Shown: positions 27,629 to 46,222 of the stretch, piece by piece
Position numbering within the stretch: the stretch's first letter is position 1
Layout: the number at the start of each line of letters is the position of its first letter
Notes under the pieces: model-generated
The model's input: only the letters and a program-made list of their open reading frames with translations
The model's database searches: none
What the model was told of the DNA's origin: nothing
Assembly (NCBI RefSeq): GCF_012927045.1
Contig: NZ_JABBFW010000001.1
Coordinates: forward strand, 496,001 to 560,000
Origin: Azohydromonas caseinilytica
GTDB lineage: Bacteria; Pseudomonadota; Gammaproteobacteria; Burkholderiales; Burkholderiaceae_C
Reading direction: 5' to 3'
Length of the DNA stretch: 64,000 nt
Made by a program: the position numbers and the translations under genes

Positions 27629-27704
27629 GCGCCTGTAGCTCAATGGATAGAGTACTGCCCTCCGAAGGCAGGGGTTGCTGGTTCGATCCCAGCCAGGCGC
27701 GCCA
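27629..27704 (+). tRNA. tRNA-Arg (anticodon CCG)
   Basis: A 76-nt cloverleaf including encoded CCA. The acceptor stem is GCGCCTG/CAGGCGC. The anticodon stem CTGCC/GGCAG encloses the loop CTCCGAA with anticodon CCG, and the T arm is GCTGG-TTCGATC-CCAGC. It is intact because the integrated island restores its 3' half. Its last 50 bases are the attachment site. Confidence 0.97.
27655..27704 (+). repeat. attL: left attachment site (50-bp direct repeat)
   Basis: The 50 bp from the anticodon stem to the CCA end of tRNA-Arg are identical to 46173-46222. Bases to the left (GAGTA versus AATTCC) differ at once, which defines the edge. tRNA 3' halves are the standard target of tyrosine integrases. Confidence 0.95.
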
Positions 27705-32200: not shown

Positions 32201-32366
32201 GCCAGCTCTGGGCTTGAGTGCCTTCGACCCAGGCCAGCAGGTCGGGCAGGAACAGGCCGCTGGCGCGGTCAAACAGGGCACTGTCGCCGTCGGTGTACAG
32301 CCAGCCGTGGGCGGCCAGGTGGTGGCAGATTTCGGCCTCGAAATAGACTTCCTTGTGCAGCGCCAT
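29256..32366 (-). CDS. hsdR: Type I restriction endonuclease subunit R
   Basis: A 1036-residue motor/nuclease subunit of a type I RM enzyme. The N-terminal PD-(D/E)xK nuclease reads LDLVLFLNGIAVATAELKSD (Asp142, Glu156-x-Lys158). The SF2 translocase follows with Walker A SAGSGKT (307-313), DEAH (420-423) and FTATPK, then helicase domain 2 (FQTGFDQPLLCGMYVDK) and a helical C-terminus. Length and motifs are intact. The start ATG at 32364-32366 overlaps the stop of the DUF262 gene by one base (TGATG). It is the last gene of the operon read from hsdM. Confidence 0.96.
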   Translation of the reverse strand: MALHKEVYFEAEICHHLAAHGWLYTDGDSALFDRASGLFLPDLLAWVEGTQAQSWQKLSKTHGAALPKVLAERVRKSLNERGTLDVLRRGVEMLGLKEPLLLAQFKPALALNPETQARYAANRLRVVRQVNHSPNNQKDALDLVLFLNGIAVATAELKSDFTQSVHDAVDQYRFDRHPSPKGGVLEPLLGFPGGALVHFAVSQSEVMMSTRLAGPATTFLPFNRGNNGGAGNEPNPEGFATAYLWEQVWERESWLDILHRYLIGKRDDKKQLKAVIFPRYHQLDATRKLVADVLANGPGERYLIQHSAGSGKTNSIAWTAHFLADLHDAQHHKLFDSVLVVSDRNVLDAQLQEAIFDFERTTGVVASITSEHGSKSAQLSQALKDGKKIIVCTIQTFPFALAAVQELAATEGKRFAVIADEAHSSQTGEAAAKLKALLSAQEWADLQDGGEIDTEALLAAQMEARADAKGLTYVAFTATPKAKTLELFGRKGEDGLPRPFHVYSMRQAIEEGFILDVLKNYTSYKLAFKLAHDGKEFDEQEVERSTAMKGIMQWVRLHPYNIAQKVQIVVEHYRENVQPLLVGRAKAMVVVSSRKEAVRWQKAIRAYIEKQNYPLGVLVAFSGEVNDPDSFPAPVTEASKDLNPGLKGRDIRDAFAEPDYHLLLVANKFQTGFDQPLLCGMYVDKMLGGIQAVQTLSRLNRAHPGKDTTYILDFVNEPDAILQAFQTYYETAQLEATTDPHLVYDLRAKLDATGYYDDFEVDRVAKVDLDPNGTQKALDAAIAPVADRLLKRYKAAQQEHNEAEAQGDEKAAKAAKDTLDALLLFKNDMGAYVRLYAFLSQIFDYGNTDIEKRFLFYKRLIPLLDFGRERDTVDLSKVVLTHHTLKNRGAQTMGLNPDGSYKLQPMDAMGSGAVQEKQKDYLTEIIQKVNGLFEGELTDNDQLLYVNGVLKGKLLENEMLVQQAASNSKEQFANSPDLKDALLGAIMDALEAHQTMSTQALGSERVRDGLKDILLGPAQLYEALRARSGSGTTVAG

Positions 32367-34231
32367 CACTCCCCCTGTGCTTCGCGCGCCAGCTGCCGCG
32401 GGTCCCACACGCGGTCGGCAAGCTGCCGGTAGAGCGACTGCCGCTCTTCCATCTCGGCCTTGCCGAACTGGGGCAGTGCCCGGAACGGCAACTCCGCCTG
32501 GCGGATGTAGGCGAGGAAGCCAGGGTGCCGCTCGTAGCACTGCTCGTGCAGCGAGCGGGCCAGCAGGTTCTGGCTCACGTAGTGCGGCCGCTTGTCGGCG
32601 TAGGGCAGATCGCCATAGCTGGCGTTGAAGATCTTGGGCAGCAGGAGCAGCCCGCCGAAGCGGTTGCGCCATTCAGCGAACTCGGCCGGCGACGCGAATT
32701 CGTCGGTGTGCCGCTCGGGGTGGTCGGCCCAGATGTGTTCGATCTCGAACCGGCCACGCCCTTCCACGAGGTAGTCACTGGTCTGGCTGCGCATGCCCGA
32801 CACGGCTTCGAGATGCGCCGTCATGCGAGCCAGCAGCACTTTGATGTAGCGCATCGACCACTGGTTGAGCCCGAAGCCGGCAAAGCCGCTGCGCCGGCGG
32901 TCGCTGGTGCCGTCGAAGTCGCAGCCCTGCTCATCCAGCTTGGCCATGAGGATGCTCACCAGCTCGTCCAGCGCCTTGCCGCGGATGTCGCGCAGGATCA
33001 GGAACGCCGCATAGGACATGGCTGCGAAGGTCATGCTCAGGTAGTTCACCGCGCGCCGGGCCAGCAGGATGTCCAGGAAGATCGCCACAGCACGCACCTT
33101 GCGCTTCACGGTCTCGGGCGAGTCAGTCACCTGCAGCGGGGCCAACAGCAGCGGGTACTGCAGGGTGAAGTTGAAGCAGGCCACGTGGTAGACCGGCTCC
33201 AGCCCTTCTTCGGGCTTCAGCGACACCTTGCGGATGCGCTCGTACTGGCGCGTGTAGAACACGAAGTCTTGGCAGACGAAGCGGAAGTAGTCCTCGCCCT
33301 GGCGTAGCCCCAGGGCTTCGGCGTGCTGGCCCACCCAGCGGTGGAACTCGGTGCCGATGCGCTCAAAGTCTTTGTTCTCGGCGCCGCTGCGGCGCTCGCG
33401 CACGCTGTTGGCGTAGCGGCCCCGCAGCCAAGCCTTCACGGCGTCGGTGTCCTCGTCCTTGCCCAGCTTGCGCAGGGCCTCAATGCGTTCGCGCCAGAGT
33501 CGCGCCGCCTCGTTGCGCTGAACAACGTCGGTGATGTTGGCCAGCAGGTAACCCTTGAGCATGTCCAGCGGCGACAGCGACAGGCCCCGGTCGTTCATCG
33601 TTTCGAAGATGGTGTATGCGTCTTCGTCGGATGCAGCCGTTATTTCAATCAGGTATACATTGTCCGTTAGCCAATCGCAGAAATATGGCAAAGCTTCATC
33701 GTCAAGCTCGTTGCCTAATTCCTTCAGCAATCCATCCAAATCCTGGTAGCGCGCGACGATGGTTTGCACCGATTCCGAAGCTTCGCTGGTTTCAGGCACA
33801 TCGCCGTTGAATAGCGCTGTCATGATAGCAAGTCGGTCATCAACAGCAATATTGAACGCCTTCTTGCCGTAGCGCTCTGAATAAATGAGTTCTTCCAAAT
33901 GCACGCGGTCGGGCCGGTCACCCTGCCTCCGGTGTAGCAGCAGCAGCAGCAGGGTTAACGTGGTTAGCCGCTGCTGACCGTCCACAATGTAAAGCTGGCC
34001 GTCGCGCTTACTGAGAATAATGGAGCCCAAGAAGTAGTTGCCGTACTCTTCGACTGCCTCGCGCGCATTACTTGATCGATGCCACTGAAAAAACTGCGAC
34101 GTCAAGTCGTCGATCAGTTCTTTGGCCTGTTTGTGTTGCCAGCGATACTCCCGCTGGTAATAATCAATCTTGTAGCGCTTACCTTTGAGAATCTCGCTGA
34201 CAGTGCGTGCTTCGCCATCAATGGTTTTCAT
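32366..34231 (-). CDS. DUF262/DUF1524 protein (GmrSD/SspE-like nuclease) inside the type I RM operon
   Basis: A 621-residue protein. The N-terminal DUF262 ParB-like domain has YYQREYRW (about 24-31) and the signature VDGQQRLTTL (DGQQR at 84-88), associated with nucleotide hydrolysis in GmrS/SspE. A central helical region includes FETMNDRGLSLSPLDMLKGY. The C-terminal DUF1524 HNH-like nuclease has IEHIWADH (Glu498-His499), asparagines in RNRFGG and IFNASYGD, and Lys547. It thus resembles fused GmrSD type IV restriction enzymes and SspE. It overlaps hsdS by four bases and hsdR by one, so it is an integral operon member. Its relation to modification by this HsdMS is unknown. Confidence 0.9.
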   Translation of the reverse strand: MKTIDGEARTVSEILKGKRYKIDYYQREYRWQHKQAKELIDDLTSQFFQWHRSSNAREAVEEYGNYFLGSIILSKRDGQLYIVDGQQRLTTLTLLLLLLHRRQGDRPDRVHLEELIYSERYGKKAFNIAVDDRLAIMTALFNGDVPETSEASESVQTIVARYQDLDGLLKELGNELDDEALPYFCDWLTDNVYLIEITAASDEDAYTIFETMNDRGLSLSPLDMLKGYLLANITDVVQRNEAARLWRERIEALRKLGKDEDTDAVKAWLRGRYANSVRERRSGAENKDFERIGTEFHRWVGQHAEALGLRQGEDYFRFVCQDFVFYTRQYERIRKVSLKPEEGLEPVYHVACFNFTLQYPLLLAPLQVTDSPETVKRKVRAVAIFLDILLARRAVNYLSMTFAAMSYAAFLILRDIRGKALDELVSILMAKLDEQGCDFDGTSDRRRSGFAGFGLNQWSMRYIKVLLARMTAHLEAVSGMRSQTSDYLVEGRGRFEIEHIWADHPERHTDEFASPAEFAEWRNRFGGLLLLPKIFNASYGDLPYADKRPHYVSQNLLARSLHEQCYERHPGFLAYIRQAELPFRALPQFGKAEMEERQSLYRQLADRVWDPRQLAREAQGE

Positions 34232-37409: not shown

Positions 37410-37750
37410 GGGTTTCCTGAGGGATACGGGCGCCGGCTGGCGACGCACTCTCATTCTCCCTTAGACCACTAAGGCCAAACATTGCGGACGCATCAGGCAC
37501 TGTCACTGGTCATCCGCTCACCCCAGAGCGCAAAGGCGCCAGGATCGCGGGCGTGATGCAGAAACTAGAGGCGTGGATGGTGGACGCCCTCAAGGCTTAG
37601 CCCACCGAGCAGTCCGGGAGACTGAGCAGTCATCAGCCTTCTAACCGTCGGATGCTGATGCTGCCCATTGCCCGCGTACTGCCGTGCCTGTGTAAACGCT
37701 CCTGTAAACCGTCTGTAAACCTGGCTTCGCCGCGTCCACACGGCTTGATT
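37410..37750. promoter_or_regulatory. hsdM upstream region with three TGTAAAC repeats
   Basis: This 341-bp region has no full gene. Three direct TGTAAAC repeats lie at 37691-37697, 37703-37709 and 37714-37720, spaced 11-12 bp, which is one helical turn. They could be operators or part of an origin-like region that the IS21 copy now separates from the GTGTTCC array. A plus-strand frame ending ...MQKLEAWMVDALKA at a TAG near 37601 looks like a possible C-terminal gene remnant but cannot be identified. Confidence 0.5.
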
Positions 37751-37858
37751 TGTTGAGGCCGACCGAAAAGTGAGCCACTTCTAATGGCCGTGCCGACTGA
37801 AAACTGAGCCAGGTGAACACCTACCCTGCCGCTTTTTTGTGCAGCAGGGAATCGAGGA

Positions 37859-39409
37859 GTGATCACCATGGATCAGATCGGATGGATCCGGCGGCTGCAC
37901 CGCCGGGAGAACAAGAGCGAGAGGGAGATCTCGCGCATGACGGGGCTGTCGCGCAACACGGTGGCCAAGTGGCTGCACGCCGACGTCAGCGAAGCGCCGA
38001 AGTACCGGCGCGCGCCCCAGCCCTGCAAGCTCACGCCGTTCGTGGAGATGGTCAAGCAGGCGCTGCTGGCCGATGCCCGGCGTCCGAAGCAGGAGCGGCG
38101 CACGGCCAAGGCGTTGCACGCCGAGCTCAAGGCCGCTGGCTACGGCGGCGGCTACACGCGGCTGACGGACTTCATCCGCGACTGGCGCGCCGGCGAAGGT
38201 CAGGCCGCCAGCGTCCACGCCTTCGTGCCGATGGCCTTCGAGCTCGGCGAGGCGTTCCAGTTCGACTGGAGCGAGGAAGGGCTGGTGGTGGGCGGCATCT
38301 ACTACCGGCTGCAGGTGGCGCACATGAAGTTGTGTGCCAGCCGCGCGTTCTGGCTGGTGGCCTACCCGAGCCAGGGCCACGAGATGCTGTTCGACGCGCA
38401 CACGCGCTGCTTCAGCGCGCTGGGCGGGGTCGCCAGACGGGGCATCTACGACAACATGAAGACCGCCGTGGACAAGGTCCACAAGGGCAAGGGGCGACAG
38501 GTCAACGCCCGCTTCGCCGTGATGTGCGCCCACTACCTGTTCGACCCCGACTTCTGCAATGTGGCCAGCGGCTGGGAGAAGGGGGTTGTCGAGAAGAACG
38601 TGCAGGACAGTCGCCGGCGCATCTGGGTCGAGGCGGCCAAGCGGCGCTTCGGCTCCTTTACCGAGCTCAACGCCTGGCTCGGGGAGCGCTGCCGCGCGCT
38701 GTGGCAGGAGATCCGCCACCCGCAGCATGGGCGCTTCAGCGTGGCCGAGATGCTGGAGCACGAGCGGCCGCACCTCATGCCCATGCCGGTACCGTTCGAC
38801 GGTTACGTCGAGAAGCCCGCGCGCGTGAGCAGCACCTGCTTGGTGACGGTGGCGCGCAACCGCTACTCGGTGCCGTGCGAGCTGGCCGGGCAGATGGTCA
38901 GCACGCGGCTGTACCCGGGGCGCGTCGTGGTGGTGGCCGGCGACGACGTGGTGGCCAGCCACGAGCGGCTGAGCGACCGGGGGCAGACCCACTACGACTG
39001 GCAGCACTACGTGCCGCTGCTGCAGCGCAAGCCCGGCGCGCTGCGCAACGGGGCGCCCTTCGTCGAGATGCCCGAGCCGCTGCTGCGGCTGCGCCGGGCG
39101 CTGTTGCGCGAGAGCGGCGGCGACCGCGTCATGGCGCAGGTGCTGGCCCTGGTACCGGGCGCCGGACTCGACGCCGTGCTGGTGGCGGTGGAGCTGGCCC
39201 TGGAGAGCGCGCCGCCCTCCGGGCGCGTGAGCATCGAGCACGTGCTCAACGTGCTGGGGCGGCTCAACGCCGCGCCGGTGCCGCAGGCCGTGGCCACGCC
39301 GCTGCAGGTCAAGACGCCGCCGCTGGCCGACCCGGGCCGCTACGACCGGCTGCGCAGCCGCGCCGGCGCCGTCGTGCCGGCCCACGGCGAGGAGGCCGGC
39401 CATGCGTGA
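37859..39409 (+). CDS. istA: IS21-family transposase IstA
   Basis: A 516-residue DDE transposase. The N-terminal helix-turn-helix (KSEREISRMTGLSRNTVAKWL) binds the IS ends. The RNase H-like core has the first aspartate in FQFDWSEEG, the second in GIYDNMKTAVDKV and the glutamate in WEKGVVEKNVQ. A C-terminal beta domain follows (VARNRYSVPCELAG). It is intact and full-length. Its stop overlaps the istB start by eight bases (ATGCGTGA), the usual coupling in IS21 elements. Confidence 0.95.
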   Translation: MITMDQIGWIRRLHRRENKSEREISRMTGLSRNTVAKWLHADVSEAPKYRRAPQPCKLTPFVEMVKQALLADARRPKQERRTAKALHAELKAAGYGGGYTRLTDFIRDWRAGEGQAASVHAFVPMAFELGEAFQFDWSEEGLVVGGIYYRLQVAHMKLCASRAFWLVAYPSQGHEMLFDAHTRCFSALGGVARRGIYDNMKTAVDKVHKGKGRQVNARFAVMCAHYLFDPDFCNVASGWEKGVVEKNVQDSRRRIWVEAAKRRFGSFTELNAWLGERCRALWQEIRHPQHGRFSVAEMLEHERPHLMPMPVPFDGYVEKPARVSSTCLVTVARNRYSVPCELAGQMVSTRLYPGRVVVVAGDDVVASHERLSDRGQTHYDWQHYVPLLQRKPGALRNGAPFVEMPEPLLRLRRALLRESGGDRVMAQVLALVPGAGLDAVLVAVELALESAPPSGRVSIEHVLNVLGRLNAAPVPQAVATPLQVKTPPLADPGRYDRLRSRAGAVVPAHGEEAGHA

Positions 39410-40208
39410 CCTTATTGCCGAGCTCAAGGCGCTGCGGCTGCACGGCATGGCCGGCGCCTGGGCCGAGCTGCAGGAACAGGGCCAGAACGCCGGCGTGGAG
39501 ACCTCGCGCTGGCTGCTGGAGCACCTGCTGCAAGCCGAGGCCACCGACCGCGCCATGCGCTCGGTGAGCTACCAGATGCACGCGGCGAAGTTCCCGATGC
39601 ACCGCGACCTGGCCGGCTTCGACTTCGACGTCTCGCCGGTGGACCGCAAGCTCGTGACGCAGCTGGCGACGTGCGAGTTCACCGAGCACGCGCACAACGC
39701 CGTTCTCGTGGGCGGGCCTGGAACCGGCAAAACGCATCTTGCGACCGCCATCGGCGTGGCCGGCATCACGCGCCACGGCAAGCGCGTGCGGTTCTACTCG
39801 ACGGTGGACCTGGTCAACGCGCTGGAGCAGGAAAAGGCCCAAGGCAAGGCTGGGCGCATTGCCGCGACGCTGCTGCGCATGGACCTCGTTGTATTGGACG
39901 AGCTGGGATATTTACCCTTCAGCCAAGCCGGCGGGGCGTTGCTGTTCCACCTGCTGTCCAAACTCTACGAGCACACCAGCGTGCTGATCACCACCAATCT
40001 CGACTTCGGTGAGTGGTCAACGGTATTCGTGGACGCAAAAATGACAACCGCGCTGCTGGACCGCCTCACGCATCACTGCCACATCGTCGAAACGGGCAAC
40101 GAGTCGATCCGCTTCATGCGCAGTACCGAGCAGGCCAAGCAGCGCATCACGGCTCGCGAGCAGGCGCGCCGGGTTGCCAGGGCGCCAGTGCCAGAAGAGA
40201 TTCCTTGA
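39402..40208 (+). CDS. istB: IS21-family helper ATPase IstB
   Basis: A 268-residue DnaC/DnaA-like AAA+ ATPase that assembles on DNA and stimulates IstA transposition. Walker A is GGPGTGKTHLA, Walker B is LVVLDELGYLPFSQ, sensor I is SVLITTNLDFGEW, and the C-terminal arginine region is LLDRLTHHCHIVETG. It is intact, so with istA the copy appears transposition-competent. The 195 bp that follow to the IS end hold the right terminal repeats and a perfect DnaA-box match (40315-40323). Confidence 0.95.
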   Translation: MRDLIAELKALRLHGMAGAWAELQEQGQNAGVETSRWLLEHLLQAEATDRAMRSVSYQMHAAKFPMHRDLAGFDFDVSPVDRKLVTQLATCEFTEHAHNAVLVGGPGTGKTHLATAIGVAGITRHGKRVRFYSTVDLVNALEQEKAQGKAGRIAATLLRMDLVVLDELGYLPFSQAGGALLFHLLSKLYEHTSVLITTNLDFGEWSTVFVDAKMTTALLDRLTHHCHIVETGNESIRFMRSTEQAKQRITAREQARRVARAPVPEEIP

Positions 40209-40403
40209 TGAACCGCCGCGCGGGGCCAGACGCTGCGGGCTACGCCCTTCGCGTCTGGCCCCGCGCGCGCAACACAGCGCCTAGGAGGTCAAACACCAGA
40301 GCTTGGACCTACACTTATCCACAGCCGGCCTTCAAAAACCGGCTTCCGCCCCTGGCTCAAAGTTCAGTCGGCACGGTGGCTCAGAATTGCGTCGGCCCCG
40401 ACA

Positions 40404-40653
40404 CTTGATTCTCTTTCGGTGTTCCTAGTGTTCCGCAGTGTTCCCTAGAGGGGAAACGTCGGAACACCGGCAGTGTTCCAGCGGTGTTCCGTGGTGTTCC
40501 TGACCCGGCCACACTCCTGAGCAGCCTACTTCAGGAACACCAGGGAACACTGGCCGCAAGCCCCGGTGTTCCAGCGTTTCCAGAGGAAGAACACCGGGAA
40601 CACCAGGAACCTGGCGAAATGCAGCACTTCAGCGGAAGTGCTGCCGCGAGCTG
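40404..40653. repeat. Array of GTGTTCC heptamers (iteron-like)
   Basis: Eleven perfect copies of GTGTTCC or its complement lie in 40419-40603. Starts on the plus strand are 40419, 40428, 40438, 40473, 40484, 40494 and 40566. Inverted copies are at 40461, 40534, 40544 and 40597, and one copy with a mismatch is at 40588. Adjacent copies are often 9-11 bp apart, about one helical turn. The region is non-coding and lies at the 3' end of the DUF927/Toprim gene pair. It looks like an iteron or protein-binding array, possibly a replication origin of the element. Confidence 0.8.
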
Positions 40654-42459
40654 TTATTCGTCGGCCTCCATCAGCTTGCCCGTGAAGGCGTACACCCGCA
40701 CTTTCTGGCCCAACGCTCGCGGTGTGAGTGTGCGGCTGCTCTTGCCGTCTGCGCCGGGCTGGATCACGCCAGCAGCTACCAGTGCAGCCGCCGCGGCCTT
40801 GTGGTCGAAGCCGGCGCACAGCTCACGCCGGAACACCTCGGGCATTACGAAGAACTGCCGTGAACCATCCGCGCCAGTACGGAAGAAGCCCGCCCGGTTG
40901 ATGATGCGCTCTCCTGCGTCGTCCACGTCCTGGAAGCGGCTGGAACCGTGGGCCTCGAAGAAGGCGCGCACCTGCTGCAGTAACGCTCGATCCTCGCGCC
41001 GGCCCGGTCCGCCGAAGGACTCCAGCCAGGAATCGAAGCAGCGCCCCGCAGCGGCCTCAGCCTCGCCCGGTTGCCAGCCGGTCAGTCCGTATCGTGTCGC
41101 CAGCTCGCCCGCCTCTGCCACCAAGCCGAAGCGCCGGGCCACGCGCAGCACTTGTCCGGCGGCTTCCTTAGGAACGTGATCGTGGACGAACTCGCGCACC
41201 GCCGCGCCGATGGTGTCGGCCAGCTCGGCACGGTCACGCGCCAAGTGCTTCAGCCACTCCACGCCCACGGCACCGAAGCAGCGTCCCACGGCCTCCTTGA
41301 TCGCCAGCGCCAACGCTGCTGCGCTCGGCTGGCCGTTCAGGCAGTCGAAAGCGCCCAGCCCTGCACCGGCGTCAGCCTCGATGTCGGCCAGGCGGATCTC
41401 CTGCCCCGCGTTGGCCTTCTTACCGGCGCGGGCCATCAGGCCGGAAAGCGACTCCTCCCCGGCGCTGAGGAACAGCAGCGTCCAGCGGGCTGCCGGCTTG
41501 GCGGTGCCGCTGCGGCTCGCCCGCGTCTTGCCCTGGCCGTTGGCGAGCATGTAAGCCGCGTCGCCAGCCTCGCGCGGGTCTACCTGGGACAGCTCATCCA
41601 GGATCAGCAACCCGTGGTTGTGCAGCGCCGCCAGCCCCTCAAGACCGTTGGCCGTGGTCCGCCAGAGCCGCGGGTACTCCTGCGGGTTTCCCCAGACGGA
41701 CGCAGCCAGCGCCAGCGCCGTGCTCTTGCCGCAGGACGATGGGCCGCGCAGGTGGAATCCACCGGCGTCATCGCTGGTGATGCCCAACAGCGGCCCGGCA
41801 AGGGCGCAGGACAGTGCGAACACCATGCGAGAGTTGCCGGCTGCCAGCGCTGCCACTTCGTCGCGCCACTGCGACGCGGTGCCCAGCGTGGACAGTGCTG
41901 GCTCCAGGCCATGGGCGTTCTGGAACACCACCCGCTCGCCGTTGCCGCCGATAGCTTGGTCCGGCAGCACGTACACGCCGCCACACCAGCCCAGCCGGTC
42001 CACGCAGCGCGCGCGCTCTGTCACCGGCCATACCTGCAGGTACGTCGCCAGCATGTCGCGCGCGGCCTTGCCGGGGGCTATACGCTGGCCCCGCCGGGCC
42101 AGTTCACGCAGCACCTCCAAGCCGTCGCCTTGCAGCAGCTCCATGGGCATCGCCCATCGGTGCTGCACGCCGTCCGCGTCGTCCCACTCCAGCAGCCGGC
42201 CCCACTCGAACGACTTGGCGCCACGCGTCATCGCCAGGATGCGCAGCGGGGAGCACAGCCACTGCGGGGACTTCTCGTTGCCGTCCTTATCCTTGCCGAT
42301 GAAGTACACGCCCGCGGCTTGGTCTGCGGTGTGCTCACGCAGCTCGAAGCGCATACCGCCCACCTCGTAGCGGGTCAGCGGCTGCGGCTTGGCCTGCAGC
42401 GCCGCCGCAGCCATGGCCAAGTCAGCGCACACGTCGGCGCTGTCCAGTACCGCGCTCAT
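40654..42459 (-). CDS. DUF927-domain ATPase (replication helicase-like)
   Basis: A 601-residue P-loop protein of the DUF927 group found in phages, satellites and islands. Walker A is GPSSCGKST (239-247) and Walker B LLILDELSQVD (from 284). A following segment reads GDAAYMLANGQGKTRASRSG. The N-terminal part binds as DUF927 (WLCSPLRILAMTRGAKSFEW). The C-terminal region is helical and ends in a winged-helix-like segment. It overlaps the Toprim gene by four bases (ATGA), like the primase-helicase pairs of satellites. It is presumed to unwind DNA at the element's origin; the GTGTTCC array follows its stop. Confidence 0.88.
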   Translation of the reverse strand: MSAVLDSADVCADLAMAAAALQAKPQPLTRYEVGGMRFELREHTADQAAGVYFIGKDKDGNEKSPQWLCSPLRILAMTRGAKSFEWGRLLEWDDADGVQHRWAMPMELLQGDGLEVLRELARRGQRIAPGKAARDMLATYLQVWPVTERARCVDRLGWCGGVYVLPDQAIGGNGERVVFQNAHGLEPALSTLGTASQWRDEVAALAAGNSRMVFALSCALAGPLLGITSDDAGGFHLRGPSSCGKSTALALAASVWGNPQEYPRLWRTTANGLEGLAALHNHGLLILDELSQVDPREAGDAAYMLANGQGKTRASRSGTAKPAARWTLLFLSAGEESLSGLMARAGKKANAGQEIRLADIEADAGAGLGAFDCLNGQPSAAALALAIKEAVGRCFGAVGVEWLKHLARDRAELADTIGAAVREFVHDHVPKEAAGQVLRVARRFGLVAEAGELATRYGLTGWQPGEAEAAAGRCFDSWLESFGGPGRREDRALLQQVRAFFEAHGSSRFQDVDDAGERIINRAGFFRTGADGSRQFFVMPEVFRRELCAGFDHKAAAAALVAAGVIQPGADGKSSRTLTPRALGQKVRVYAFTGKLMEADE

Positions 42460-43460
42460 GCCCCGCCTCCTTCCTGGTGCGCCGGCTCGAAGGCATCTGT
42501 GATCGACTCGGCCACGCGGTCCAGCTCGGCACCTCCACGCGCGGCCCACACGTCGCACCAGTCTGCGCTGGCCGTGCTGGGGGTCAGCACGTCACACCGC
42601 ACCAGGGCGCTGGCCGCGCGCGCCTTGAGTACCTGTGCCGCACGTTGTCCTGCCTCGCCGGGGTCTGCGAACACCACCAGGCGTCGCACGTCCGGCGACC
42701 ACACATAGGACTTCATGCCCAAGGCACTGTAGGCGGACACCGTGGCTACGCCAGACGCCAACTGGGCAGCCAGTGCCGTCTCGATTCCTTCGGCTACGCC
42801 CTGCACCCCGGCCTCGGGCTCGTACAGGCGGATCGCCGCGCCAGCCAGCGGCCCGGCCGTGCCGGTCAGCTTCTTGACCGCGGGAACGTTCGCCTTGCGG
42901 CCGTCCGCGCTGAGGTACGTGCGATGCAGCGCCAGCACCTCGCCGGTTGGGCTTACCAAGGGGGCCACCAGAGCCGGGAAGCGGCCCAGCTCCTGCCCTT
43001 CGTGCCAGTACGGCAACGCTGAGTGAAAGCGCAGGCACGCCGGCAGGGGCCACAGATCGGCCTTGAGACGGTGCTGCAGGTAGCGGGTGGCCGGATCGTC
43101 GGCGCCCAGCACCGCGCACTGTGCCCAGATCGCCGCGTTGCGCTGGGCGTTGGCGGCCCAGCGCTGGCGCTGCTCGGCTTCACGCTCGGCTCGCGCGGCT
43201 TGCACCCGGTGCTGCAGTTCAGCACGCTCCGCGGGCGTCATGCGCTTGCGGTCGATGGCTGTCCACACGCTGCTGATGCCTTGGCGGTAGCAGCCGAACA
43301 CGCCGCCGCGCAGGTCCTCGAACAGCAAGCACCAGCCGGCCTTGTCGCCGCGTCGGCCGTTGGTCGAGAAGCGCACGATGCGCCCGGGCTGGATCGTCTC
43401 TGGGGCATGGCCCAGCAAGGCCAGAATTGCTGAGAGGAAATGGCTGAGGAAGTCACACAT
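42456..43460 (-). CDS. Toprim-domain primase-like protein
   Basis: A 334-residue protein with a C-terminal Toprim domain (about 215-300). It contains VAEGIETALAAQLASG (Glu224 and Glu227), SALGMKSYVW and VVFADPGEAGQRAA. The N-terminal region resembles the zinc-less primase-associated part (VRFSTNGRRGDKAGWCLLF, AIDRKRMTPAERAELQ). The usual DxD of Toprim reads D266-P-G, so the second acidic residue is missing and catalysis is doubtful. It overlaps the unknown repeat protein by eight bases and the DUF927 gene by four. It may still serve as a loader or structural primase partner. Confidence 0.85.
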   Translation of the reverse strand: MCDFLSHFLSAILALLGHAPETIQPGRIVRFSTNGRRGDKAGWCLLFEDLRGGVFGCYRQGISSVWTAIDRKRMTPAERAELQHRVQAARAEREAEQRQRWAANAQRNAAIWAQCAVLGADDPATRYLQHRLKADLWPLPACLRFHSALPYWHEGQELGRFPALVAPLVSPTGEVLALHRTYLSADGRKANVPAVKKLTGTAGPLAGAAIRLYEPEAGVQGVAEGIETALAAQLASGVATVSAYSALGMKSYVWSPDVRRLVVFADPGEAGQRAAQVLKARAASALVRCDVLTPSTASADWCDVWAARGGAELDRVAESITDAFEPAHQEGGGA

Positions 43461-44301
43461 CGTTGACTCCTCCCGTCAGCACTTTGACCGCGACCACGGC
43501 ACGGTCGAGGCACTTGATGACGTCGGATTCGTGTTGCTGCGAGTTGATTGCCCGGATCAACTCAAACAACGCGTTGTAAGCCCCGATTTCCAGATAGCGC
43601 GCTTTGATGTTCGGGATATACCGCGGCTCTTCGACCAGCTGAGCCACCGCGGCCGCGACCTTCATCACCAATATCTCCTGGAACCACGCCGATCGCGGGC
43701 TACGCGCCGCCGCTTCCAACTTGCGCACCACCTTGGCGGTGTTGATTTCCAATGACTTCATCTTGCTGGCGCGGGTGGCGACGCGTTCCTTCACCAGCAG
43801 CTCCACCGCGGTTGCCAAGCGTATGACCGGGGACATGCTCGACGACTCGACGTGCTGGGCACGCGCTGCTGCCACGAGATTGCTCGCGTTTTCGAGGGCA
43901 GCAGCGTCGGCGGGATTTGCGACCGCGATCCAGGAATAGCGGGTGTCTTCCAGCAGCAGCTTCACGGCGGTCGCGACGCGTCCGACCAGCGCGCTGTTTA
44001 ACAAGGGCGTGGGCTGCTGGGTGTAGATCGAAGCGACCAATTCGTTCACCGCTTGGATAGCCTCAGCTCCTAACGGCGATATTTTCTTGGCTGAGGCATA
44101 GCGCCACTCTTGCTTCAGCATCTGCTTTACCGCGTCGCGCACGACTGCTTCGAAATCCCGGGGCTTGAGGTATTTGGCCTGCACCTTGATCACCAATTGG
44201 CGCATGGCTCGGACGATCTGATCCTCCAAGAGTTTGAAATTGCGGGTTTTTGCGGGTACGGGCGTGCGTTGTCCCGCCCCCAGGGCGTAAAAATCTTGCA
44301 T
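43453..44301 (-). CDS. Unrecognised helical protein with ~50-residue internal repeats (282 aa)
   Basis: I do not recognise a family. After a 50-residue N-terminus the protein is made of four similar units of 47-55 residues plus a partial fifth. The common pattern is (V/I/L)xxAVxxLLxxxRY, a variable stretch, then NxLVxAxxxQ. Examples are VATAVKLLLEDTRYSW, LATAVELLVKERVA, VAAAVAQLVEEPRYIP and the partial RAVVAVKVLTGG. All units are predicted helical. It is first of three overlapping genes (this, Toprim, DUF927) and follows the AlpA-like gene after 12 bp, so it belongs to the replication operon. It could be an origin-binding or accessory factor; that is inference from position. Confidence 0.75.
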   Translation of the reverse strand: MQDFYALGAGQRTPVPAKTRNFKLLEDQIVRAMRQLVIKVQAKYLKPRDFEAVVRDAVKQMLKQEWRYASAKKISPLGAEAIQAVNELVASIYTQQPTPLLNSALVGRVATAVKLLLEDTRYSWIAVANPADAAALENASNLVAAARAQHVESSSMSPVIRLATAVELLVKERVATRASKMKSLEINTAKVVRKLEAAARSPRSAWFQEILVMKVAAAVAQLVEEPRYIPNIKARYLEIGAYNALFELIRAINSQQHESDVIKCLDRAVVAVKVLTGGVNDV

Positions 44302-44313
44302 GTCAGTCTCCGA

Positions 44314-44538
44314 TTAGGTGTTGGCGGCGTCGCGCTGGCGCTGCAGCCAGGCGTCGAGGTCGGCACGCAGCACGCCGGACGCGCGGCCGCCGAGGCGGAC
44401 GCGCGCCAGCTCCTGGCGACGGATCAGCGTGTAGAGGTGGGAGCGGGAGCAGCCCAGATAGGCGTGGGCTTGGGAAATGCGCAGCACCGGGCTTTGCGGT
44501 TGCTGTGCGGGGGTGGGAATGTTGACCTTTTTGGCCAT
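44314..44538 (-). CDS. AlpA/Xis-like helix-turn-helix protein (74 aa)
   Basis: A 74-residue protein starting MAKKVNIPTPAQQ. Its MerR-like/AlpA winged helix reads LRISQAHAYLGCSRSHLYTLIRRQELARVRLGGRASGVLRADLDAWL, the standard excisionase-type DNA-binding fold. I chose the ATG at 44536-44538 over an upstream start because the extra residues are not family-like. In satellites such proteins control excision and the int or replication promoter. It leads the operon with the repeat protein, Toprim and DUF927 genes. Confidence 0.88.
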   Translation of the reverse strand: MAKKVNIPTPAQQPQSPVLRISQAHAYLGCSRSHLYTLIRRQELARVRLGGRASGVLRADLDAWLQRQRDAANT

Positions 44539-44895
44539 AAGTCCTCGTGTTGAGTTAACAACCGAGCCCCGCAGCAAAAGGCCTCCACTGCCCGCGAACG
44601 GAACGATGGTGGAAAATCCTGGGGTCTGGGTCCAATCAGACACCGGGCTCTTGCGTTGGTGCTCGGTATGGAGCCCCCAGAGTCCTCGAACGACTCTCGG
44701 GGGTTTCCACCTCAGGACTTGCTTGTTTGCCGCCCTTTGTCGAGGTGTGCGCTGATGCTAAGAGCGGTTTTGACTGCTTCTGCGCGTCTCACTAAGGGCA
44801 TGACCGTCTTTGCTGAGGTAGCGAATCAACGAAACGTTGGTACGCCAACAAAACGTTGATCACTTCAGCAAATTGTAAAAATAAGTAAAACATGG
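44539..44895. promoter_or_regulatory. Control region between integrase and AlpA-like gene
   Basis: A 357-bp gene-free and AT-richer spacer. It holds AAACGTTG at 44832 and 44851, the palindrome GTTGG-TACG-CCAAC between them, and a promoter for the leftward operon (entered separately). These are likely operators for the AlpA-like protein. A clustered GAACGACTCTCGGGGG hairpin-like stretch lies near 44690. Confidence 0.5.
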
Positions 44896-44900
44896 TCACA
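44872..44900 (-). promoter_or_regulatory. Candidate sigma-70 promoter for the xis-replication operon
   Basis: On the minus strand TGTGAC (44900-44895) and TACAAT (44877-44872) are separated by exactly 17 bp, a good -35/-10 pair in an AT-rich stretch. It lies just downstream of the integrase stop and points at the AlpA-like gene. Confidence 0.45.
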
Positions 44901-46059
44901 GCGTCAGCTGCGCTAGTGCATTCCTTGCGTGCTCCTGCTGCAAGTGTGCGTAGTGCTTGGCGATCATTTCGACCGACGTGCCGGCCAATGCCGCTACCGT
45001 GGCAAGGTCCAAGCCGTGCCGTGAGACCAAGTCCGTGATGACGGAGTGCCGCAGCGTGTATGCGGTCACAGACTCCGGCAGTCCTGCTGCCGACACCGCG
45101 GCCTTGATAGGCCATTTCCAACTGTCCTTGTCCCAGCGTCGGCCGCTTGCGTCGGCAAACAGCGGCGCTTGCGGCAGCTTGTCGCGCGCTGCTTCGATCA
45201 AGAGCCCAACCGTTGCTGCCGGAAGCGGAATGCGACGGTCGGCGCCGGCCTTGTCGGTCCCCACGCGCAGCGCGCCCAACTTGGGATTGAAGTCGCTGAC
45301 GTTGAGTTGCGCCAATGCCCCCGGGCGCAATGGCAACGCGCACAGAGCCTTCAGGAAGGGCTGCAAAGCAGGCTGCGCCGCGTCCACGAGACGGCGCCTC
45401 TGGTCAGGGTCAAGGTAAGTGTCGCGTCGTCCATCGGCCCCAGGAATCGGCCGCAGTGCCTGTTCCCAAGCGTGCGGGCTGGTCACCAAGCCGTCGGCCA
45501 GCGCGAGATTGAGCGCGGCGCGGAAGCTCGCCATGTCGCGGTTCAGCGTGGCGTCGGCGCGCCTCGCGCCCTCTTTGCCGGCCACAGGGGTGGCGGCCAA
45601 CTTACGACGCCAGTCCTTCAGGTGCGTGGCAGTCAACTTCTTGATGTCGAAGCCGGCCAGCTTCTCGTCATAGACATAGCGCCTGAAGCGGGCAGCTGCT
45701 TCGTCGGCCTTCGCGCCGCCCGACTCGTGCCGCAGGTGCTCCACGTAGCGCTCGCACGCGTAACGCACGGTACAGTTCGCATTGCTGCCACCCCTGCCCA
45801 GGTGCTCGAACCACTCGCGCGCCGCCCGTTGCGCCGCATCGAAGCGCTCGCTGGCCGGCAGGTGGTCGAGCGCACCAAGCGTGGTCCATCGGTTCTTCGC
45901 TGCTGCTTCGTCGTAGAAGCGCGCCAGCCAAGTGCCGGGGGTTGCCGTGCTCATGCGCCGGTAGCCCACGTATCGCCCCTTCTCGATGCGCTGCCAGTAC
46001 GGATCGCGCCGCACTGGCAAGGCATCGCGCGCGGCGACGGTATTCAACTTCACTCTCAT
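44896..46059 (-). CDS. Tyrosine recombinase integrase
   Basis: A 387-residue site-specific recombinase. It has an N-terminal arm-binding region, a core-binding SAM-like domain (about 95-200) and a catalytic domain. Catalytic residues are Arg245 in LPLRPGAL, the box YTLRHSVITDL (Arg337, His338; the usual leading His is Tyr), His369 and the nucleophile Tyr370 in IAKHYAHL. It lies 113 bp from attR, its expected place. It should integrate and excise this island at tRNA-Arg(CCG). Length and motifs are intact, so it looks functional. Confidence 0.95.
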   Translation of the reverse strand: MRVKLNTVAARDALPVRRDPYWQRIEKGRYVGYRRMSTATPGTWLARFYDEAAAKNRWTTLGALDHLPASERFDAAQRAAREWFEHLGRGGSNANCTVRYACERYVEHLRHESGGAKADEAAARFRRYVYDEKLAGFDIKKLTATHLKDWRRKLAATPVAGKEGARRADATLNRDMASFRAALNLALADGLVTSPHAWEQALRPIPGADGRRDTYLDPDQRRRLVDAAQPALQPFLKALCALPLRPGALAQLNVSDFNPKLGALRVGTDKAGADRRIPLPAATVGLLIEAARDKLPQAPLFADASGRRWDKDSWKWPIKAAVSAAGLPESVTAYTLRHSVITDLVSRHGLDLATVAALAGTSVEMIAKHYAHLQQEHARNALAQLTL

Positions 46060-46172
46060 GGCCCGGACAGGTATGAAATCGGTATGAAGAACACTAGCGC
46101 ACTTTCATACATCTCAATAGATGCACCTAGAGGGAAATGAAGTGCGCGGATGTCGCCTGAAGTCCAAATTCC
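46060..46172. promoter_or_regulatory. Integrase promoter/arm-site region with GGTATGAA repeats
   Basis: Two direct GGTATGAA copies (46070-46077 and 46081-46088) and an inverted TTCATAC (46104-46110) lie between the integrase start and attR. Repeats here are candidate arm-type integrase-binding sites or integrase operators. Confidence 0.45.
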
Positions 46173-46222
46173 CTGCCCTCCGAAGGCAGGGGTTGCTGGT
46201 TCGATCCCAGCCAGGCGCGCCA
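46173..46222 (+). repeat. attR: right attachment site (50-bp direct repeat)
   Basis: An exact copy of 27655-27704, the 3' half of tRNA-Arg(CCG) including CCA. The following bases (CAAGCA..CACAGACGT) also resemble the sequence beyond attL but with mismatches, so the perfect repeat ends here. Confidence 0.95.

Follow-up and report, generated by a model that had tools for sequence, protein, structure and literature searches.

Iteron plasmids of the Rep/RepA class carry repeated initiator sites beside the initiator gene, an arrangement shared by the locus analysed here, where the proposed initiator differs in being an AAA+ helicase with a primase-like partner. The described functional relatives of the array at this locus are the origins of SaPI, PICI and P4, the last resembling it in layout. 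In SaPI, the C-terminal domain of Rep recognises iterons located 3' of its own gene (PMC7581432). For Gram-negative PICIs, published descriptions include iteron sets 3' of rep, one ori tested in plasmids, and origins composed of two iteron sets flanking an AT-rich region (PMC6092414). The ori and crr of P4 consist of type I iterons (GGTGAACAG); the annotated type 1 repeats of ori are arranged FFF-22-R-43-FF, i.e., three, one inverted and two, while the repeats of crr, located just 3' of alpha, begin RR-43-F and thus mirror part of ori. A further relevant system is TcpK of pCW3, a winged-helix protein binding the 9-nt tandem repeats of oriT mainly by its beta-wing and not by the recognition helix (PMC6137059).

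In the window (the whole stretch of 64,000 nucleotides analysed) lies an 18.5-kb island with exact copies of 50 bp from the tRNA-Arg(CCG) 3' end at its two borders. On its minus strand, reading from the right end, genes for an integrase, an AlpA/excisionase-like protein, a 282-aa protein, a Toprim protein and a DUF927 helicase precede a dense array of heptamers. This array is very probably the replication origin of the island, at which the DUF927 protein would bind the heptamers as two assemblies positioned head to head, with priming by the Toprim protein. The island features are as follows.

46173..46222, + strand, att repeat, 3' part of tRNA-Arg(CCG) 46146-46222
44896..46059, - strand, tyrosine integrase
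44314..44643, - strand, AlpA/excisionase-like helix-turn-helix protein
43453..44301, - strand, 282-aa protein of the same gene run, no family match (Pfam, NCBIfam, PHROG)
42456..43460, - strand, Toprim/DUF7146 primase-like protein
40654..42558, - strand, DUF927 AAA+ helicase, proposed origin-binding initiator (PF06048, E 4.7e-94; ORF of 634 aa from GTG, true start uncertain)
37751..40403, + strand, IS21-family insertion (IstA/IstB)
37744-37750 and 40404-40410, 7-bp target duplication of the IS21 element, CTTGATT
27655..27704, + strand, second att repeat at the other island end, 3' part of tRNA-Arg(CCG) 27629-27704

As a replicon, the island module belongs with the SaPI/PICI-type modules already known. 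It shares with them, and with Cch of SCC, a helicase of the same family by fold (5dgk, 8tch) and profile; with SaPI and PICI origins as described, it also shares short iterons directly 3' of the initiator gene, two iteron sets, and a C-terminal domain which recognises the origin in those systems and is the predicted reader here. The combination of integrase, AlpA-like regulator, primase and rep genes with an ori at one att site likewise resembles PICI satellites, whereas the cargo of the island consists of restriction genes. No phage-packaging or interference genes were recognised among the 13 larger island ORFs scanned with Pfam. In contrast to SaPI and PICI, Toprim and helicase are encoded in separate ORFs of the window. 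A further difference, drawn from descriptions and not from a site-by-site comparison, is that a 3-1-2 half and its mirror recur in relatives of the island, either adjacent, inside an ORF or kilobases apart. The new parts are the movable mirrored half-origin and a rule linking one wing residue to one iteron base; a description of the mirrored six-site half or of the residue rule was not found in the open literature, outside of which most subscription papers lie.

The initial annotation had noted eleven exact copies of one heptamer, seven direct and four inverted, in 185 bp of non-coding DNA following the DUF927 and Toprim genes. A recount returned the same figures for GTGTTCC (7 on the + strand, 4 on the - strand, within 40419-40603). 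The array lies directly 3' of the DUF927 gene, starting 40-50 bp past its stop, and no ORF is seen to start at this stop in the window. Sites and subdivisions, as computed from the DNA, are given below.

40419, 40428, 40438, 40473, 40484, 40494 and 40566, + strand, exact GTGTTCC
40461, 40534, 40544 and 40597, - strand, exact GTGTTCC
40588-40594, iteron copy with 1 mismatch
40606-40612, iteron copy with 2 mismatches, GGAACCT on the + strand, spotted by eye
40419..40612, no strand assigned, iteron array, a dyad of 13 sites (11 exact, one 1-mismatch, one 2-mismatch)
40534..40612, - strand, gene-proximal half-origin, in gene orientation (2-mismatch F) F f -22- R -22- F F
40419..40500, - strand, distal mirrored half-origin, in gene orientation R R (R) F -23- R R R, with one extra R site at 40473
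40501..40533, no strand assigned, 33-bp spacer separating the halves, AT 0.39

Across the entire window, GTGTTCC occurs 17 times on both strands versus 5.41 expected and no more than 13 in any of 100 dinucleotide-shuffled versions. A simulation of 3000 stretches of 185 bp by a first-order Markov model of the local composition gave no 7-mer with 11 copies (maximum 8, once), which bears out the annotation's statement that chance would give almost none. CGCGCGC reaches up to 10 copies per 185 bp elsewhere in the window, overlaps counted, due to low complexity. Two heptamers 10 bp apart (at most 1 mismatch) occur at three places in the 6.65-Mb assembly (98 contigs), every one inside the array, and neither the window nor this assembly yielded a second cluster of the word. 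In the plasmid collection, blastn with the array DNA as query gave no match, as expected if the word differs from element to element.

Aligned to its reverse complement, the array gives a match of 70% spanning 40421-40610 (E 3e-7), and 10 of 12 array sites pair across a computed dyad centre at about 40517 (permutation p 0.007). The same test applied to all arrays gave p < 0.05 in 19 of 57, many of the others holding one half only. Helical phasing, as put forward in the initial annotation, applies to neighbours within runs (9-11 bp apart), but the wording was loose and the mirror arrangement represents the stronger regularity. No AT-rich unwinding stretch was found between or beside the halves, where the richest 25-mer near the array reaches 0.60, or in the 300 bp past the IS21 element. 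The window has two site sets around a centre with AT 0.39 and no evident AT-rich region, differing in this respect from PICI origins as described (PMC6092414). Eight bp separate the IS21 target duplication from the last iteron, and both halves of the array are uncut; since the IS21 element adjoins the array, this island copy may be inactive.

DUF927 homologues are present in 57 of 399 genomes of the order, the window's own included (protein search), and a profile scan provided at least 80 further DUF927 loci. The resulting set comprised 112 sequences (111 loci plus the window), 103 of them testable, including the window; left out were L001, L002 (the window itself), L039 (flank too short) and L006, L015, L049, L062, L098 and L111 (cut or no usable stop). 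A search for arrays beside these genes, as had been proposed in the initial annotation, was productive: in the 400 bp that follow the DUF927 stop, the most frequent 7-mer reaches at least four copies in 72 of 103 sequences, the window being one, as compared to 5/103 inside the CDS and 12/99 at 600-1000 bp downstream. Five of the 72 are AT-only repeats and not iterons (L054-L057, L059), the set includes duplicate loci (L003/L090, L009/L086, L011/L087, L012/L092), and at least one downstream control hit (L014) is a displaced array.

The words vary by element while keeping one register (GTGGGAC, GGGGACA, CGGTAAC, GGGTTAC, GTGTAAC), into which GTGTTCC of the window fits when read in the same orientation. 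Homologous islands lacking the array had been named as evidence against an origin. The element of the same genus (L114) retains it, with the word GGTGTTC(C/T) at 12 sites arranged FFF-24-R-21-FF plus a mirrored set and no IS end seen in 350 bp past the array; on the other hand, 41 of the 103 sequences had no usable array by scan or were dropped (L048, L056 and L060 by hand). In L048, AAATCCA repeats mostly spaced by 22 bp and unlike iterons are located about 1 kb upstream of DUF927. In L069, an array of GTCACCA (11 copies in 250 bp), off the common register, lies inside the DUF927 open frame near its 3' end.

Computation of site order across these arrays revealed a recurrent unit that opens with three sites, mostly at 9-10 bp from each other, continues after a gap with one inverted site and, across a further gap of 20-26 bp, ends with two sites. 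This 3-1-2 unit or its mirror occurs in 56 of 91 site clusters, whereas 200 permutations of gaps and orientations gave it 2.7 times on average and 7 times at most (strict pattern, with an inverted-to-pair gap of 18-28). Applying the strict pattern to the 62 sequences with arrays (window and duplicates included), 23 possess a half and its mirror, 22 one of them and 17 neither. The halves are adjacent in the window, L003, L032, L034, L051 and L063. In L010, L024, L030, L031 and L091, one half is located inside the DUF927 ORF and the other 3' of it, the inner half of L030 and L091 being situated between the Toprim domain and the DUF927 domain, which are there fused into one protein; the same DNA would in these five loci encode a linker peptide as well as iterons. 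The first half of L027 lies near the start of the open frame, perhaps upstream of the true start. In L086, L092 and L093, one half is found just 3' of the integrase gene (Pfam), 4.7-6.5 kb off, and in L046, as well as in L025 by eye, one half lies further downstream. An association of adjacent halves with separate primase and helicase genes was dropped, since L003 combines adjacent halves with a fused ORF (its Toprim match is weak, just below the cut-off).

The possibility that the array belongs to a coding gene, raised in the initial annotation as a counter-argument, finds no sign in the window, but does apply to part of the relatives: 31 of the 62 array sequences have an ORF that begins at the DUF927 stop and spans at least 80 aa, and in 24 of them it holds the 3' half sites. 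This does not speak against an origin, since the sites are kept there too.

Both internal spacings are equal in 17 of 22 non-duplicate loci with both halves. The spacers themselves, comparable in 13 of these 22 loci (the other nine, among them the window, differ in length), are identical between halves at a mean of 0.52 versus 0.26 expected, with a range of 0.23-0.94, so that some half pairs are near copies and others share only geometry. In L086, L087, L092 and L093, with halves 4.7-6.5 kb apart, the spacers are 71-94% identical, and the halves may therefore be recent or homogenised inverted copies; L051, L107 and L024 have equal gaps with spacer identity near chance. Equal spacing as proof of selection on geometry accordingly holds only in part, given the similar spacers of some loci. 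Distances from triplet to pair fall into four classes (44-46, 52-56, 63-69 and 75-79) among 41 halves, counting one per distinct spacing per locus after removal of four duplicate loci and of the five-site halves of five loci. In the most populated class, one gap shrinks as the other grows (correlation -0.81, n=26), their sum staying at about 54-55 bp; with sums of 44 and 46, the window falls into the shortest class. Strict periodicity was not retained as an explanation, the best period being broad (about 10.5-12.5 bp) and the values not independent.

The DUF927 protein was modelled with AF2 at a mean pLDDT of 91.6. Best folds for the model are 5dgk (SCCmec Cch, TM up to 0.72) and 8tch (SaPIbov1 Rep), and a profile search against PDB sequences hit these two and no other at E values up to 1. 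The isolated C-terminal domain is predicted as a winged helix (pLDDT 88.8) closest to 8tch and the TcpK-oriT structure 5vfx, at E values of only 0.006 and 0.03; its best fold match has a TMq of 0.66 with a weak E of 6e-3. The DNA encoding this domain and two residues of its wing is located as follows.

40657..41010, - strand, C-terminal winged-helix domain, proposed iteron reader
40729..40731, - strand, codon of wing residue 530 (554-aa model numbering), Thr
40723..40725, - strand, codon of wing residue 532, Thr (Arg in most relatives)

Residue 530 sits in the first strand of the wing in the 554-aa model, and its class correlates with base 4 of the iteron. Among 65 sequences, Lys or Arg at 530 coincides with G4 in 44 and a non-basic residue with T4 in 17, while four combine a non-basic residue with G4 (L079, L091, L104, L109) and none a basic residue with T4. 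The underlying set had 68 rows, from which L014 and L073 (residue missing) were removed, L102 (base A) standing outside the two-state count. When residues are pooled into classes, column 530 has the highest mutual information with base 4 among 544 columns, at 0.58 of 0.83 bits, as compared to 0.26 for the runner-up. Base 4 changed at least seven times on the tree of the AAA+ core, four of these changes being forced by well supported branches; the four independent contrasts on such branches run the same way in 3.3 cases on average, the opposite way in 0 and neither way in 0.7. Taking the residue as the starting point gives seven contrasts, 3.4 of them showing no difference, and from neither starting point are the contrasts significant. 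In a partial Mantel test, the effect of the C-terminal domain over the core was small (0.11, p 0.038).

Since the rule was found post hoc by column scanning, it was tried on 80 held-out loci from viral contigs, 79 of them readable and 63 with arrays, forming 32 clusters. The 23 clusters with confident register that are not near-copies of the first set comprise 14 non-basic/T, 3 basic/G, 4 non-basic/G, 1 non-basic/C and 1 non-basic/A. The other nine consist of 1 non-basic/T, 3 basic/G, 2 basic/C (L171 and L173, with poor register scores) and one each of non-basic with C, A and G; some members of one large cluster mix G and T at base 4. The held-out loci agree in direction with the rule, with few on the basic side: T occurs only with a non-basic residue in 32 of 32 clusters, whereas the converse, that a non-basic residue means T, fails. 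Positions 530/532 are Thr/Thr in the window and L114 and Ser/Lys in L105, which has the same word; on these two lineages, residue 532 may read base 6.

Taken together, the proposal of the initial annotation that the array is an iteron origin of an integrative element gains support from the common place, register and architecture of the arrays, from the initiator-helicase fold and from base 4 tracking a C-terminal residue. The binder of the iterons is most likely the DUF927 protein itself and not the AlpA-like or the 282-aa protein. Going by the anatomy of the locus, the DUF927 helicase would bind the heptamers by its C-terminal winged-helix domain, with the beta-wing reading the word. The roughly six sites on each side of the dyad could place two helicase assemblies in head-to-head orientation, each half plausibly taking up one hexamer, and the DNA would be opened between or beside them. 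The Toprim protein would then prime synthesis, enabling the element to copy itself in the cell after excision. We infer this sequence of binding, hexamer assembly, unwinding, priming and replication from the arrangement of sites and genes. To our knowledge, double head-to-head placement of a self-loading AAA+ helicase at an origin is not settled for these mobile elements; mirrored six-site halves which occur in many elements and can move into a gene make the idea of one hexamer per half directly testable.

Clustered short sites are also a property of operators, and among the island proteins the AlpA-like helix-turn-helix protein or the uncharacterised 282-aa protein might bind the array as a repressor or autoregulator controlling the replication operon or the genes beyond. 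This appears improbable, as the array is positioned 3' of the gene run and away from the promoter, the word correlates with a C-terminal residue of DUF927, and six-site halves recur with separate as well as with fused primase and helicase. The array could also be a copy-number or incompatibility locus, or a cis partner site like crr of P4, with initiation taking place elsewhere. Such a role would agree with P4, where alpha is directly followed by crr and the annotated ori is about 5 kb away, and with several relatives in which one half comes just after the integrase gene and the other after the 3' end of DUF927. However, both halves are together in the window, with its single cluster of the word, and the origins of SaPI and PICI, as described, are the 3' arrays themselves; the array is therefore unlikely to be a mere partner site.

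The resemblance of the C-terminal domain model to TcpK bound to oriT repeats is what would be expected of a transfer origin or relaxosome accessory site comparable to the TcpK boxes of pCW3. TcpK, however, is an accessory dimer of conjugation with transfer function and not a helicase, whereas the domain considered here is fused to a helicase of replicative type, and no relaxase or transfer gene was detected among the 13 larger island ORFs scanned with Pfam, leaving a transfer function very improbable. That the repeats represent a chance or mutational cluster without function is barely credible: the simulations never produced 11 copies, relatives with other words keep position and layout, and no supporting observation was found.

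For the preferred reading as a replication origin, P4 provides a parallel in layout. Its iteron GGTGAACA resembles words of the relatives, e.g., GGTGGAACA of L036, and the window has a similar six-site layout with other gaps, another heptamer and one combined array in place of ori and crr. Owing to its 22/43 gaps, P4 is missed by the strict half pattern (gap 18-28). Homology of P4 alpha to DUF927 was not detectable beyond the Walker A region (hhalign probability 1.3), and the origin-binding domain of alpha (1ka8) is absent among the best 50 fold matches listed for the C-terminal domain of DUF927.

A more general scheme for DUF927 replicons can be put forward tentatively, with somewhat less confidence than doubt. 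It would comprise a six-site half and its mirror, one hexamer per half, a fixed geometry and a wing that reads the word (residue 530 for base 4, possibly residue 532 for base 6). Subject to change under the same tentative scheme would be the word, the triplet-to-pair spacing class (about 45, 54, 65 or 78 bp) and the location, with halves adjoining each other, next to the integrase gene or within the initiator ORF. If this applies, ori and crr of P4 would represent convergent or ancient use of the same layout. The wing rule, if true, would be of use in predicting the words of origins from the sequence of the protein and in locating origins in unannotated islands, including carriers of defence functions such as the restriction genes present here.

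These restriction genes are situated past the IS21 element in the order hsdM, hsdS, a GmrSD-type gene and hsdR, i.e., a type I restriction cargo with the GmrSD-type gene (32366-34231) nested between hsdS and hsdR. Upstream of hsdM and past the left end of the IS element, three copies of GTTTACA (minus orientation), about 11-12 bp apart, were spotted by eye at about 37690-37725; this triplet is possibly an operator.
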